A stretch of 64,000 bases of DNA from Geodermatophilus dictyosporus (GTDB taxonomy: Bacteria > Actinomycetota > Actinomycetes > Mycobacteriales > Geodermatophilaceae). The DNA lies in NCBI RefSeq assembly GCF_900115505.1, contig NZ_FOWQ01000004.1:118250-182249 (forward strand), read 5' to 3'. Shown here piece by piece: positions 6,113 through 45,062 of this stretch. The number at the start of each line of letters is the position of its first letter. The stretch's first letter is position 1. The notes under the pieces were generated by a model. The model was not told the DNA's origin and did not search any database. It saw nothing but the letters and a program-made list of their open reading frames with translations. Position numbers and translations under genes: made by a program.

Positions 6113-8395
6113 TCACACGCGGTGGCTGGACCCGCCCGTGCGCGTGCCGGCCAGCCACCCGACGAAGTCGGCGACGGGCATCGGCCGGGCGATGGCGTAG
6201 CCCTGCGCGACGTCGCAGCCGAGGTCGGCCAGCCGCCGTCCGGTGGCGAGGTCCTCCACGCCCTCGGCGACCAGGCTCAGCCCCAGGTCGTGCGCCAGCG
6301 CGGCGGTGTGCCGCACGATCGCCGCGGCCCGCTCGTCGCGGTCGACGTCGGCGGTCAGGCTGCGGTCGAGCTTGAGCTCGTCGGCGGGCAGGTGCCGGAG
6401 GTAGGCCAGCGAGCTGTAGCCGGTGCCGTAGTCGTCGATGGACGTGCGCACGCCGAGCCGGCGCAGCTCGCCGAGCACCCGGCGGCCGCGCTCGGGGTCG
6501 GCCATGAGGGTGTCCTCGACCAGCTCCAGGGTCAGCGCCTGCGGGGGCAGCCCCCGGCGGCCGAGGGCGGCGGCCACCTTGGCCGGCAGGTCCAGGTCGG
6601 CGACGTTGGCCGCCGACAGGTTGACCGAGACCGGCACCCGGTGCTCGGCCCACCACAGGGCGACCGCGTCCAGCGACCGGTCGAGCACCGCGTCGGTGAG
6701 CGGGCGCAGCAGCCCCGCCTGCTCGGCGGCGGGCAGCACGAACGCGGGGCTGAGCAGCCCGCGCGTGGGGTGCTGCCAGCGCAGCAGCGCCTCGACGCCG
6801 ACCGGCCGGCCGTCGTCCATCGCGACCTGCGGCTGCAGGTGCACGATCAGCTCGTCCTCGACCAGCGCGGTGCGCAGCTCCTCCATGGTGCGCAGCCGGT
6901 CACCGGAGTCGCTGCCCGGGTCGGGCACGTACACCTGGACGCCGGTGCGCCCGGACTTGGCCGCGTACATGGCCACGTCGGCGCAGCGCAGCAGCTCCTG
7001 GACGTCGTCGGCGGGCACCGGGGCGGTGGACACGCCGATGCTGACGCCGACGTGCAGCCGGATGCCCCCGACCGGGAAGGGCTGGCGGAGCAGCCCGTCG
7101 ACCACGCCGGCGAAGTCGGCCGCGGTCTCGAGGTCCGTGCCGGGCAGCAGCACGGCGAACTCGTCGCCACCGAGGCGGGCCAGCACCTCGCCGGGCCGCA
7201 GCGCGGGGGTCAGCCGCGGGCCGACCTGGCGCAGCAGCTCGTCGCCGGCGCTGTGGCCGAGGCTGTCGTTGACCTCCTTGAAGCCGTCGAGGTCGAGCAG
7301 CAGCAGGGCCGCGGGCCGCGCGGTGGTGGCCGCGGCGACGACGTCGCGGGCGGCCTCGAGCAGCGCGCGCCGGTTGGGCAGGCCGGTCAGCTCGTCGGTG
7401 CGGGCCTCGAGCTTGACCTCGCGGATCGTGCGGACCTCGCGGAAGGTGACCGCCGTCCGGGCCAGCGCGGCCAGGACGCACCCGATCGCGGCCCACGCCG
7501 CCCACGGCGACATCCGGTCGCCCCAGCCGAGGCCGAGCACGAAGAGGCTGGCCAGGTTGCACACCAGCGGGACGGCGAGCACCCGCCAGCCCACCTGGGT
7601 GTCGGCCTCGCGCGACGGGGGGACCGTCCGGTCGCTGCGGTGGGCGGCCAGCGCCATGAGCAGCATGCCGCTGAGCCAGGTGAGGTCGAGCGGGCCGCCC
7701 TCGACGTAGTCCCCCACGGTGGCCAGGTCGAGGTAGACGATGTCGCCGACCAGGTTGGCCACGATGCCGCCCCCGAGCAGCAGCAGCGCGGGGTCGCGGC
7801 GCACGCCGAGGATCGCCGACACGGCGACGAGGACGGCGAGCAGCACGACGTCGGCCACGGGGTAGGCCAGGTTGGTGACGACGGCGGCGAGACTGCCCTC
7901 GGTCAGGCGCAGGGCCGGCTCCAGCAGCACCGCGACGGCCACGGCCGTGGCGCCCAGGGCGCCGATCCCGCCGTCGAGCCACATGCTCGCGTGGAAGCGC
8001 TGCACGCGGGTGCGGATGAGGGCGATGAGCGCGACGTACAGCGGCACGAAGTAGCCGAGGTAGAAGAAGTCGGCCAGCGAGGGGTAGGGCTCGTAGGTCA
8101 GCCGGGCGATGACCAGCGTGTAGACGAGGTTGCCGACGGTGTTGAGCACGAAGGCGACGGCCAGGCTGGTCCAGGCGAGGCGCTCCGCGCGGTTGCGGCG
8201 GGCGGCGAGGACGCAGACGACGGCGGCCAGCAGGCAGACGGCGTTGTAGAGGACCAGGTCGTAGGCCAGGGCCCACGCCTCGCCGTCCGGACGCGGTCCG
8301 ACGCCGGTGGCGAAGAGCGCGAGGACGAGGCCGATCGAGCCCAGGGTCCAGCGGGAGCCGCGACGGTCGGGCTCTCTCTCCGCGTTCGATCGCAC
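6113..8395 (-). CDS. membrane-bound GGDEF-EAL protein (c-di-GMP turnover)
   Basis: Bifunctional diguanylate cyclase/phosphodiesterase acting at the inner membrane. The N-terminal half (residues about 15-325) has eight to ten hydrophobic segments and is not a sensor type I recognise. The GGDEF domain follows with RTDELTGLPNRRALL and an intact LGGDEFAVLL. The EAL domain then shows VEALLRWQHP, the SVNLSA stretch, ELVEDTLM, and the IDDYGTGYSSL loop. Both active sites look intact; an obvious I-site RxxD is not seen before GGDEF, where the sequence is RPGEVLARLGGDEF. GTG start, no clear Shine-Dalgarno. It diverges from leuS. Confidence 0.93.
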   Translation of the reverse strand: MRSNAEREPDRRGSRWTLGSIGLVLALFATGVGPRPDGEAWALAYDLVLYNAVCLLAAVVCVLAARRNRAERLAWTSLAVAFVLNTVGNLVYTLVIARLTYEPYPSLADFFYLGYFVPLYVALIALIRTRVQRFHASMWLDGGIGALGATAVAVAVLLEPALRLTEGSLAAVVTNLAYPVADVVLLAVLVAVSAILGVRRDPALLLLGGGIVANLVGDIVYLDLATVGDYVEGGPLDLTWLSGMLLMALAAHRSDRTVPPSREADTQVGWRVLAVPLVCNLASLFVLGLGWGDRMSPWAAWAAIGCVLAALARTAVTFREVRTIREVKLEARTDELTGLPNRRALLEAARDVVAAATTARPAALLLLDLDGFKEVNDSLGHSAGDELLRQVGPRLTPALRPGEVLARLGGDEFAVLLPGTDLETAADFAGVVDGLLRQPFPVGGIRLHVGVSIGVSTAPVPADDVQELLRCADVAMYAAKSGRTGVQVYVPDPGSDSGDRLRTMEELRTALVEDELIVHLQPQVAMDDGRPVGVEALLRWQHPTRGLLSPAFVLPAAEQAGLLRPLTDAVLDRSLDAVALWWAEHRVPVSVNLSAANVADLDLPAKVAAALGRRGLPPQALTLELVEDTLMADPERGRRVLGELRRLGVRTSIDDYGTGYSSLAYLRHLPADELKLDRSLTADVDRDERAAAIVRHTAALAHDLGLSLVAEGVEDLATGRRLADLGCDVAQGYAIARPMPVADFVGWLAGTRTGGSSHRV

Positions 8396-8519
8396 ACGAT
8401 CGGTCTCGGCAGGGCGGGACGGGGACTACAGCCCGGTCCGCCGCCGGTTCACCCTCCCGGGTGGTGTGCACGGGACGGCGGCCGGCCGCATCCGCGCGCG
8501 TCCCGCCGGTGCGGCGGAG

Positions 8520-8525
8520 TAGGCT
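8520..8525 (+). promoter_or_regulatory. -10 element of the leuS leader transcript
   Basis: TAGGCT followed by seven bases and the GTG at 8533, so the leader peptide itself would be translated leaderlessly. Upstream 8396-8519 is divergent promoter space; no convincing -35 is seen. Confidence 0.6.
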
Positions 8526-8532
8526 CGCGCGC

Positions 8533-8568
8533 GTGATCGGGCAGCTGCTCCTTCGCCGGCCGTGCTGA
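8533..8568 (+). CDS. leuS leader peptide MIGQLLLRRPC
   Basis: Eleven codons from GTG 8533 to TGA 8566-8568. Codons 5-7 are CTG CTC CTT, three consecutive leucines, in front of the leucyl-tRNA synthetase gene. Such a run, next to a hairpin and an intrinsic terminator, is the signature of ribosome-mediated attenuation: scarce charged tRNA-Leu stalls the ribosome on the Leu codons. Start is leaderless (TAGGCT seven bases upstream). The peptide is too short for any independent function to be inferred. Confidence 0.7.
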   Translation: MIGQLLLRRPC

Positions 8569-8592
8569 TCTGACCGACGCAGACAGCACGGC
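8559..8592 (+). promoter_or_regulatory. leader hairpin over the peptide stop codon
   Basis: Nine-bp perfect inverted repeat, 8559-8567 with 8584-8592, with a 16-base loop. The left arm includes the last codons and stop of the leader peptide, so ribosome position decides whether it forms. It abuts the terminator stem two bases downstream. I could not identify an unambiguous antiterminator pairing that overlaps the terminator arm. Confidence 0.6.
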
Positions 8593-8594
8593 GA

Positions 8595-8619
8595 CCCCTC
8601 CTGCGCGAGGGGTTTTTTT
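8595..8619 (+). terminator. intrinsic terminator/attenuator before leuS
   Basis: Six-bp stem (8595-8600 with 8607-8612), hexaloop CTGCGC, followed by seven T (8613-8619). This is the only hairpin with a U tract I found in the window. It lies 36 bases before the leuS ATG and inside its leader, so most transcripts should end here unless readthrough is induced. Confidence 0.8.
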
Positions 8620-8655
8620 CTGCCCGCCGCACGACCGCCGAGGAGAACCGCGACC

Positions 8656-11559
8656 ATGAGCCAGACGGTCAGCCAGCCCGCCACCGACCCGGCCGGCGAG
8701 GGCGTCCCGCCGCACCGCTACACGCCGGCGCTGGCGCAGCGGATCGAGCTGGAGTGGCAGGACCGCTGGGAGCGCGAGGGCACCTTCCACACGCCCAACC
8801 CGACGGGGCGGCTGGCGGAGGGCTTCGAGCGGGTCGCCGACCGGCCCAAGGCCTTCCTGATGGACATGTTCCCGTACCCCTCGGGCGCCGGGCTGCACGT
8901 CGGGCACCCGCTGGGCTACCTGGGCACCGACGTGACCAGCCGGTTCCTGCGGATGGACGGCCGCAACGTGCTGCACCCGATGGGCTACGACGCCTTCGGC
9001 CTGCCCGCCGAGCAGTACGCCGTCCAGACCGGGCAGCACCCGCGGATCACCACCGAGGCCAACATCGCCGCGATCCGCGCGCAGCTGCGCCGGCTGGGCG
9101 TCGACCACGACGAGCGGCGCACCTTCGCCACCATCGACCCCGGCTACTACCGGTGGACGCAGTGGATCTTCCTGAAGATCTTCGGCGCCTGGTTCGACGA
9201 GGAGGCCGGCCGCGCCCGCCCGGTGGAGGAGCTGGTCGCCGAGCTGGACGCCGGCACGCGCGAGCCGGCGCCGGGCACCAACCCGACGGGGCGGCCGTGG
9301 GCGGAGCTGCCCGACGCCGACAAGCGCCGCGTGGTCGACGCGCACCGGCTGGCCTACCTGCACCAGGCGCCGGTCAACTGGTGCCCGGGCCTGGGGACGG
9401 TGCTGTCCAACGAGGAGGTCACCCCCGACGGCCGGTCCGAGCGGGGCAACTTCCCGGTGTTCCGGCGCCCGCTGACCCAGTGGATGATGCGGATCACCGC
9501 CTACGCCGAGCGGCTGCTGGCCGACCTGGACCGGCTGGACTGGTCGGACTCGGTCAAGCAGATGCAGCGCAACTGGATCGGCCGCTCGACCGGCGCGCGG
9601 ATCCGCTTCGCGGCCGGTGAGCAGGCGATCGAGGTCTTCACCACCCGCCCGGACACCCTGTTCGGCGCCACCTACGTGGTGCTGGCCCCCGAGCACCCGC
9701 TGGTCGAGGCGCTGACCGCGGACGCCTGGCCCGACGGCACCGACCCGCGGTGGACCGGCGGCGCGGCCACCCCCGGCGAGGCGGTGCGCGAGTACCAGCG
9801 GCAGGCCTCCCGCCGCTCGGAGCTGGACCGGCAGAACGAGGCCCGGGAGAAGACCGGCGTCTGGCTGGGCACGACCGCCGTCAACCCGGTCACCGGCCGC
9901 GAGCTGCCGGTGTTCGTCGCCGACTACGTGCTGACCGGCTACGGCACCGGGGCGATCATGGCGGTGCCGGGCGAGGACAGCCGCGACTGGGAGTTCGCCG
10001 CCGTCTTCGGCCTGCCGGTGGTGCGCACCGTGCAGCCGCCGGAGGGCTTCGAGGGCGGCGCGTACACCGGCAGCGGCCCGATGGTGAACTCGTCGAACGA
10101 GCACGTGTCGCTGGACGGCCTGACCGACAAGGCCACGGCGATCGCCCGGATGACCGAGTGGCTGGTGGCCGCCGGCCACGGCGAGGCGACGACCACCTAC
10201 AAGCTGCGCGACTGGCTGTTCAGCCGGCAGCGCTACTGGGGCGAGCCGTTCCCGGTCGTCTACGCCGTCGACGGGGACGACGCCGGCCTGCCGCGGGCGG
10301 TGCCGGAGTCGCTGCTGCCGGTGCTGCTGCCCGAGGTCGACGACTACTCGCCGAAGACCTTCGCCGACGACGACGCCGAGTCCGCTCCCGAGCCGCCGCT
10401 GTCGCGGGTCCCCGAGTGGACGACGGTGGAGCTGGACCTGGGCGACGGCCTGCGGACCTACCGCCGCGAGACCAACACGATGCCCAACTGGGCGGGGTCG
10501 TGCTGGTACTACCTGCGCTACCTGGACCCGGGCGACGACGCGCAGATGGTCGACCCGGAGCTGGAGCGCTACTGGCTGGGGCCGCGCTCGCCGGGCGACG
10601 TCGGCGGCGTCGACCTGTACGTGGGCGGCATGGAGCACGCGGTGCTGCACCTGCTGTACGCCCGGTTCTGGCACAAGGTGCTGCACGACCTGGGCTACGT
10701 GTCCAGCGAGGAGCCGTTCCGGCGGCTGGTCAACCAGGGCTACATCTCCGCCTACGCCTACACCGACGAGCGCGGCTTCTACGTGCCGGCCGCCGACGTG
10801 GTCGAGGAGGACGGGCGGTTCCTCTACGAGGGCAGGCCGGTCAACCGGGAGTACGGGAAGATCGGCAAGAGCCTCAAGAACATGGTGACGCCCGACGAGA
10901 TGATCGGGGCCTACGGCGCCGACACCTTCCGGGTCTACGAGATGTCGACCGGGCCGCTGGAGCAGTCGCGGCCGTGGGACACCAAGGCCGTCGTCGGCTC
11001 GCAGCGCCTGCTGCAGCGAATCTGGCGGGTGGTGGTCGACGAGGCGACCGGCGCGGTCCGCGTGGACGACGCCACGCCCTCGGACGACGTGCTGCGGGCG
11101 CTGCACCGGGCGATCGCCGGCGTCCGGGACGGCATGGCCACGCTGCGGTTCAACGTGGCCATCGCCCGCATCGCCGAGCTGACCAACGCGCTGACCGCGA
11201 CCTACGGCGCCGACGCAGCCGTGCCGCGCTCGGTGGCCGAGCCGCTGGTGCTGCTGGTCTCGCCGCTGGCCCCGCACCTGGGCGAGGAGCTGTGGGCCCG
11301 GCTGGGCCACGACTCCTCGGTCGCCTGGGCGGGGTTCCCGGTGGCCGACGAGCAGTGGCTGGTCGAGGACACCGTCGAGGTCGCCGTGCAGGTCAACGGG
11401 AAGGTGCGGGCGCAGGTGAGCGTGCCGGCCGGTGCCGACGCCGCGGCCCTGGAGGCCGTGGCGCGGGCCGACGAGCGGGTCGCCGTGCAGCTGGCCGGTA
11501 AGACGGTGCGGCGGGTGGTCGCCGTCCCGGGCCGGCTGGTCAACTTCGTCGTCGCCTGA
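8656..11559 (+). CDS. leuS: leucyl-tRNA synthetase
   Basis: Charges tRNA-Leu in the cytoplasm. 967 residues, class I. The HIGH motif reads HVGH (about residues 82-85, in [12 protein letters not shown]). The CP1 editing domain contains the threonine-rich [12 protein letters not shown]. The KMSKS loop reads KIGKSLKNM near residue 735, the usual actinobacterial variant. The C-terminus carries the tRNA-binding extension with [14 protein letters not shown] has AGGAG nine bases upstream. It sits between the GGDEF-EAL gene and the PPOX gene, and is under the leucine attenuator just upstream. Confidence 0.98.
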
Positions 11560-44833: not shown

Positions 44834-44934
44834 GACCCGCGTTCGGCCGGGTGGTCGTCACCCGATGCGAGGTGGCCTCGGCCGGACACCGCCGAGTCAC
44901 CGGACGCCGTCCACGGACGTGCGCGAGGTGAGCC

Positions 44935-45062
44935 GGGGACCCACCGCAGCACTGGGGTGAGTTCTCGTGTGCGCCGGACCCGTTCCGGTACACGGAGATA
45001 GGGCACGTCTTCCCAGCCCGAACCCGTCAGCTAACTCGGTAGGCGGTTGCTGAGGAAGAACG
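44935..45062 (+). ncRNA. ydaO/yuaA-type c-di-AMP riboswitch
   Basis: The leader carries the hallmarks of this class: a CTGGGGTGAG segment (44952-44961) and a 3' core CCGAACCCGTCAGCTAAC (45018-45035), then CGGTAGGCGG and GAGGAAG before the Shine-Dalgarno. The 357 bases between the flanking genes hold this aptamer plus the promoter above. Boundaries are approximate, by eye. In actinobacteria this riboswitch is known upstream of cell-wall hydrolase genes, and c-di-AMP typically turns expression off. Confidence 0.9.

Follow-up and report, generated by a model that had tools for sequence, protein, structure and literature searches.

How does a leader region in front of an aminoacyl-tRNA synthetase gene switch between termination and read-through if no antiterminator is evident? 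The question is raised by a locus of Geodermatophilus dictyosporus at which leuS, the gene for leucyl-tRNA synthetase, follows a short leucine-rich open reading frame (ORF), a hairpin (A) and an intrinsic terminator (T). The locus belongs to a stretch of 64,000 nucleotides (nt), here called the window (contig NZ_FOWQ01000004.1, positions 118,250 to 182,249 of the forward strand), and all coordinates below are window positions. We consider it probable, though by no wide measure, that this element is a leucine-responsive, ribosome-mediated transcription attenuator of leuS in which A would act as the antiterminator by abutting T. Three features of the leader are new here: a fixed spacer of 5 nt between the last Leu codon and A, the abutting geometry of A and T, and, in Geodermatophilaceae, a helix (P0) that links the leader to sequence past the U-tract.

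All parts of the element are on the plus strand. A -10 box (TAGGCT, 8520-8525), recognized from the sequence and conserved in relatives, ends 7 nt before the GTG of a presumably leaderless leader ORF (8533-8568) of 11 codons (VIGQLLLRRPC), closed by TGA at 8566-8568. The three control codons CTG CTC CTT (8545-8553) occupy conserved Leu positions and are followed by the 5-nt spacer (8554-8558), which has the same length in most leaders. Hairpin A (8559-8592), supported by folding and by the cognate pairing test described below, pairs 8559-8567 with 8584-8592 in 9 base pairs (bp) and has the stop codon inside. T (8593-8619), supported by folding and a terminator scan, pairs 8593-8600 with 8607-8614 and ends in a run of seven U (U7, 8613-8619). 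The ATG of leuS (8656-11559, 967 amino acids) lies 36 bases past the end of U7, behind a probable Shine-Dalgarno sequence (GAGGAG, 8640-8645). The protein matches TIGR00396 with 864.6 bits (cut-off 548.4). The fold of 8533-8660 reaches z = -2.54 against shuffled sequences.

Most of this anatomy (GTG leader, three Leu codons, 9-bp hairpin over the stop codon, U7 terminator, 36 bases to leuS) had been given in a preliminary description made from the letters alone, and was confirmed by sequence and folding. Its gap of two bases between A and T was not: folding gives 0 nt, a value that rises to 1 nt when the closing G-U pair of T is disregarded. Its remark that this is the only U-tract hairpin in 64 kb is correct in substance, since a terminator scan of the window listed nine sites, two of which are the hairpin of T, and an unbroken T-run is found only at T. 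The same description had preferred ribosome-mediated attenuation to a T-box. A search of 8000-9000 against Rfam, up to an E-value of 10, gave two chance-level matches on the minus strand, neither of them a T-box, and no T-box covariance model matched in the window searches.

Whether the Leu codons and the U-tract hairpin are kept in close relatives had been set beforehand as the test of that reading. A leuS search of the genus yielded 27 leuS loci in 26 of 26 genomes, and every one of the 27 carries A, T and a leader in which two to four Leu codons follow one another (three in 23 loci); the test did not refute the reading. One genome (G015) has two leuS loci (L014 and L027), on different contigs and with an identical leader sequence, which may reflect a duplication or an assembly artefact. 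In 78 of the 80 named loci, an ORF with a Leu run is closely preceded by a -10 box; the other two are L054, which has no upstream DNA, and L100, which has no visible leader. The leader of L099 is seen but failed parsing. Across 48 loci taken as Geodermatophilaceae (a set that holds some genomes twice, e.g. L018 and L031, and includes L037, whose LeuS is 84% identical to that of the window), the element has a mean identity of 80%; the corresponding values are 57% in the 90 nt preceding it, 67% between the element and leuS, and 73% over the initial 90 nt of leuS.

Beyond the family, a covariance model built from 40 leaders was used. In a search of the class at E 0.01, with strict filters that lose weak matches, the model matches at least 190 of 394 genomes and 81 of 138 genera; in a phylum-wide sample it matches 26 of 296 genomes, with 12 of the 26 outside the class and several of the matches weak. 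Downstream of the matches that were fetched, leuS is present in 92 of 100 cases. The 20 listed class genomes without a match all belong to one family (f2) of the same order, with 184 more beyond these 20. One model match (L257) sits in a long open frame and was set aside as a probable false hit. These counts indicate that the attenuation of leuS by leucine which was described in Streptomyces extends to about half of the sampled class genomes or more.

For the geometry of the leaders, 206 loci were passed to a parser, of which 187 were parsed and 19 failed. Six more were lost to quality filters, and removal of near-duplicates left 118 of the remaining 181 leaders. Fifty loci from the class and phylum model searches (L111-L160) are unparsed, and 100 other places from those searches were fetched. 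The 118 leaders comprise 74 from the covariance-model search, which favours the spacing of the model, and 44 found via the leuS protein, 37 of the latter being from Geodermatophilaceae or the Streptomyces family. The distance from the last Leu codon to hairpin A is 5 nt in 109 of the 118 leaders and 2 nt in the other 9. Leaders found via the protein give the same spacing, both before deduplication (106 examined with 0-8 nt permitted; 5 nt in 92/104, 2 nt in 12/104) and after it (38/44 and 6/44, respectively), and the fixed spacer is thus not an artefact of the covariance model.

Counted from hairpin A, codon positions -11 and -8 are Leu in 118/118 leaders, counts on which the parser condition of a run of two or more Leu codons bears, and position -14 is Leu in 96/118. 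The last of them (-8) is CTT in 102 of the 118 leaders, a codon that serves for none of the 270 Leu residues in four window genes, which are the reference for codon usage here in place of the whole genome. Retention of this rare codon as the last Leu codon speaks for the proposed attenuator. The leader stop codon is at +7 relative to A in 91 leaders and at -2 in 18, positions from which a terminating ribosome would reach the 5' arm of A; in the other 9 it comes later. A different idea is an unregulated terminator, with a role of its own for the peptide or a short RNA. A terminated leader of about 87 nt is indeed expected from the coordinates, but the peptide varies outside the Leu run, and its C-terminal PC or PR is dictated by the hairpin sequence, with 18/118 leaders stopping before it; we regard this explanation as highly improbable. 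With the leader geometry fixed to the nucleotide, the question of how switching might occur without an evident antiterminator becomes simply testable.

The leader start itself is presumed to coincide with the start of transcription. A sigma-70 consensus scan that required a -35 hexamer listed no promoter in the window. The pattern TANNNT occurs just 31 times on both strands of the 64 kb, and its presence 7 nt before the leader GTG is therefore unlikely to be due to chance. In 116 of the 118 deduplicated leaders, 6 or 7 nt separate the -10 box from the leader start, a figure to which the parser contributes, as it demanded a nearby T[AG]NNNT box and preferred gaps near 6.5. Strings resembling a Shine-Dalgarno sequence precede the leader start in 12/118 leaders. 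For the Streptomyces lividans leader peptide LeuL2, leaderless transcription has been reported from RNA-seq data (PMC8079986). We thus place the transcription start, probably, at or beside the leader GTG.

Which pairings of the leader are under selection was addressed by a cognate pairing test, in which true partner segments of the 118 leaders were compared with partners swapped between species (20 pairings tested). If paired segments are under selection, the true partners are expected to pair better than swapped ones. This is the case for hairpin A (z -21.5 overall, -9.9 within families) and for T (z -22.6 overall, -9.1 within families). Overall values carry relatedness and composition as well: a pairing between the 30 nt that precede the leader and the sequence past the U-tract scores -4.2 overall and falls to -1.6 within families.

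The obvious candidate for a switch is the classical trp-type arrangement, with A as the 1:2 protector, T as 3:4, and a hidden 2:3 helix between the 3' arm of A and the 5' arm or loop of the terminator. The order of leader, hairpin and terminator is the usual layout of such systems, the Streptomyces versions have been named classical, with antiterminator and terminator hairpins (Seliverstov 2005, PMC1262725), and by eye the GCRCGG of A can pair with the terminator loop in some members. In the cognate test, however, the hidden 2:3 helix goes in the wrong direction: with its own terminator 5' arm plus loop, the 3' arm of A pairs less well than with non-cognate partners (z +2.9 overall, +1.2 within families), and the pairing also falls short of that in shuffled sequences (mean z +0.60). 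Since the Leu run is outside A, the 5' arm of A would scarcely be covered by a ribosome stalled there. Nor do the Leu codons pair preferentially with the terminator (overall z -0.6 and -0.8; within families, +0.8 and +2.2). No exclusive antiterminator that shares bases with the terminator was thus revealed by equilibrium folding and energy tests, and the earlier impression that an antiterminator pairing is not obvious was borne out, as there is neither covariation nor excess pairing for one of the trp type. We regard the trp-type reading as unlikely. Two weaker signals were noted among the pairings. The leader before the Leu run and the 3' arm of A give z -3.1 overall (within-family p 0.0065), which is weak given 20 pairings. 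The Leu run and the stretch behind the U-tract give z -3.0 overall and -1.7 within families, which was taken as overlap with a helix, P0, that is treated below.

A second possibility is that A and T contest a few shared basal nucleotides at their boundary, as proposed for Corynebacterium glutamicum ilvBNC, where adjacent hairpins have experimental support (PMC11857589). An overlap of 2-3 nt between A and T was indeed found in 10 of 118 leaders. In 106 leaders, however, there is a gap without overlap (0 nt in 66, 1 nt in 32, and 2-3 nt in 8; the remaining 2 leaders were misparsed), and in the window the next outward pair of T would be C-U. Such boundary competition is hence an improbable account of the leuS leaders, to much the same degree as the trp-type scheme.

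Folding calculations for the stalled and completed states had been suggested in the preliminary description. If the RNA is masked by a ribosome that reaches as far as the base of A, both hairpins have a mean probability of 0.98 over the 118 leaders. With the mask set to two stop positions, T has a mean probability of 0.96 and 0.93, and A is excluded by construction. The probability of T is at least 0.9 in 106, 114, 107, and 101 of 118 leaders in the four states and, in the window, 0.999 in each of them. T thus folds in all states, and a terminating ribosome would remove A. Since T stays folded whether A is present or masked, the switch is not a plain competition for bases at equilibrium.

The attenuator that we favour would work as follows. 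A 70S ribosome would load on the leader GTG without a Shine-Dalgarno sequence and, if Leu-tRNA is scarce, would stall on the Leu run. With any of the three Leu codons in the A site, it would halt just short of hairpin A, which would stay folded. Termination requires the basal pairs of T to form inside the RNA exit channel, and a helix that adjoins T without a linker should not fit there; as long as A is intact, it would therefore keep these pairs from closing, and transcription would continue into leuS. With ample leucine, the ribosome would proceed to the stop codon, inside or at the edge of the 5' arm of A, and melt A, so that T could fold and terminate. A would thereby assume the role that the 2:3 antiterminator has in trp-type systems, through abutment and not through bases in common with T. 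We take A as the antiterminator because the 5-nt spacer would let a stalled ribosome spare A whereas a ribosome at the stop codon would melt it. By the geometry of frameshift stimulators, 5 nt is the distance at which a hairpin would come into bare contact with the mRNA entry of a ribosome that has the last Leu codon in its A site. While the spacing is directly observed, stalling on the Leu run, antitermination by A and the steric nature of the block are proposals which fit it. Two reports lend such a mechanism plausibility: in phage P7, a blocked RNA exit channel suffices to prevent terminator hairpins (PMC6624301), and for C. glutamicum ilvBNC, the closest system with tests behind it, there is mutational evidence for adjoining antiterminator and terminator hairpins (PMC11857589). 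The switch most likely would let the cell make more leucyl-tRNA synthetase when charged leucine runs short.

Several points weigh against this proposal. T folds at equilibrium with or without A, so that antitermination would have to rest on a kinetic or steric effect. In the absence of translation A would form and read-through is predicted, which is opposite to the behaviour of classical attenuators. According to one proposal, hairpins in direct succession can terminate transcription as effectively as a single strong one (PMC8355165). Changes of the control codons in the Streptomyces coelicolor ilvB leader, as well as mutations of Leu codons in the leuA leader, reportedly were without regulatory effect (both cited in PMC1262725).

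The same spacing is encountered in front of other branched-chain amino acid genes. Covariance-model matches that do not precede leuS were found before cimA (L245), leuA (L254), and ilvB (L256, L259, L260), with the genes at L245, L254 and L259 being fragments below curated cut-offs and those at L256 and L260 assigned by eye. L256 is from an AT-rich genome outside the class, and its leader start was not assigned. The genome of G. dictyosporus itself carries a leaderless-looking leader (MHLSGTTLIID, then a stop codon) with abutting hairpins before a citramalate synthase gene (L266; contig C6, minus strand, leader start near 2016); the gene product matches TIGR00977 with 478.8 bits (cut-off 450), and the locus was located via the protein rather than by the covariance model. 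Here, the last Ile codon ends 5 nt ahead of the hairpin. Seven leaders not belonging to leuS were examined, six of them with an assigned start (L245, L254, L258, L259, L260, L266). Each of these six has a spacer of 5 nt between its last branched-chain codon and the best hairpin, with a T-like hairpin immediately behind; the model, which is biased towards 5-nt spacing, had supplied five of them, and the gene behind L258 has no assignment. At the ilvB locus of the same genome (L261), the same leader scan found no such leader. Before leuA of this genome (L265; contig C7, minus strand, leader start near 2167) there is a leader VRGSLLLTRRGEALS, followed by a stop codon, which resembles published leuA leader peptides of the LEU element.

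It is conceivable, and we put it forward tentatively, that leuS, cimA, and some leuA and ilvB genes share a common actinomycete module, in which a 5-nt ruler would park a leaderless stalled ribosome at the foot of an abutting steric antiterminator, without alternative pairing.

A further helix, P0, joins the part of the leader that immediately precedes the Leu run to nucleotides past the U-tract. In the window, its strands are CGGGCAG (8538-8544) and CUGCCCG (8620-8626, immediately past the U-tract), as indicated by folding and by a permutation test in Geodermatophilaceae. The cognate test gives z -5.6 overall and -3.1 within families (p 0.0015); within Geodermatophilaceae it gives z -5.0, a value reached by 0 of 100,000 permutations (33 distinct pairs, 46 loci), all of these permutation figures being inflated by the shared ancestry of related sequences. 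The pairs differ between loci (GGCGGAC/GUCCGCC in L041, GGUGG/CCACC in L045, GGCGUC/GACGCC in L022), and the register differs between clades in the alignment. A shuffle control gives -1.48 for Geodermatophilaceae (f1), -1.37 for f11, and -0.24 for f16, with null results for f21 (0.06) and f29 (0.07) and a mean of -0.26 over 33 families. P0 as a class-wide helix was therefore rejected, as the control shows it in f1 and f11 only among the five families. Because ancestry inflates the z values, families differ, and 20 pairings were tested, P0 is regarded as a lineage feature of secondary weight.

A further possible reading is control of leuS at the level of translation or RNA stability, with P0 closing the read-through leader and hiding the leaderless start while T trims a constant share of transcripts. 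The signals in Geodermatophilaceae and f11 are in favour of this idea. In the shuffle control, however, P0 is absent from f21 and f29 and weak in f16, even though these families retain the other parts of the element, and states shared among related sequences lead to an overstated permutation figure. This explanation is quite unlikely in our view.

At the gathering threshold of Rfam, which was applied to the window and 17 loci, no leader was matched; the single match is a c-di-AMP riboswitch elsewhere. That riboswitch (RF00379) is at 44880-45060 on the plus strand of the window and scores 67.8 bits (gathering score 38). As the leaders tested are without an Rfam family, a family model of the leader would annotate many genomes.

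How does the leuS leader relate to systems already described? In the trp attenuator of Escherichia coli, segment 1 contains the control codons, and alternative helices have segments 2 and 3 in common. The leuS leaders resemble it in having control codons, a stop codon at the hairpin, and a terminator, and they differ in that control codons in segment 1 and shared segments 2 and 3 were not found in them. The LEU element of actinobacterial leuA has a leader peptide with a Leu run, as in the window; it differs by a proposed pseudoknot, the base stem of which pairs Leu codons with the Shine-Dalgarno box of leuA (PMC1262725). Closer are the ilvBNC attenuator of C. glutamicum and the ilvB-II motif (PMC11857589, PMC10272879), with a near-leaderless branched-chain leader peptide and an antiterminator that adjoins the terminator, as is the case here. 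In C. glutamicum, however, the hairpins overlap by a GCC trinucleotide at which the choice is made, and an anti-antiterminator has been proposed (PMC11857589), whereas the leuS leaders mostly lack an overlap. For the class-wide spread, the fixed spacer and P0, no report was found in the literature searched, a search that most subscription journals lie outside.

The closest counterparts are in Streptomyces. Attenuators of leuS were predicted in 2005 in two species, S. coelicolor and S. avermitilis (PMC1262725), and LeuL2 (MRAVRLLLSEPR) before leuS of S. lividans TK24 is listed as leaderless and is followed by a hairpin and uridines (PMC8079986). Streptomyces loci that we found via the leuS protein carry the printed LeuL2 peptide or near variants. 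The window shows the same short Leu-run ORF immediately before leuS, and the same hairpin at the stop codon followed by a U-tract terminator; gene, Leu triplet, hairpin and terminator are thus alike, and a leaderless start, for which the conserved -10 box 7 nt before the GTG speaks, would be a further likeness. It differs from the published LeuL2 in its GTG start and in the PC at its end, many Streptomyces leaders have a longer loop in A than that of the window, and the Streptomyces family f21 gave no sign of P0. On comparative grounds, the initial reading of ribosome-mediated attenuation with a putatively leaderless leader peptide is favoured, and the window element, whose geometry is unusually clear, is an additional case of the kind published for Streptomyces.

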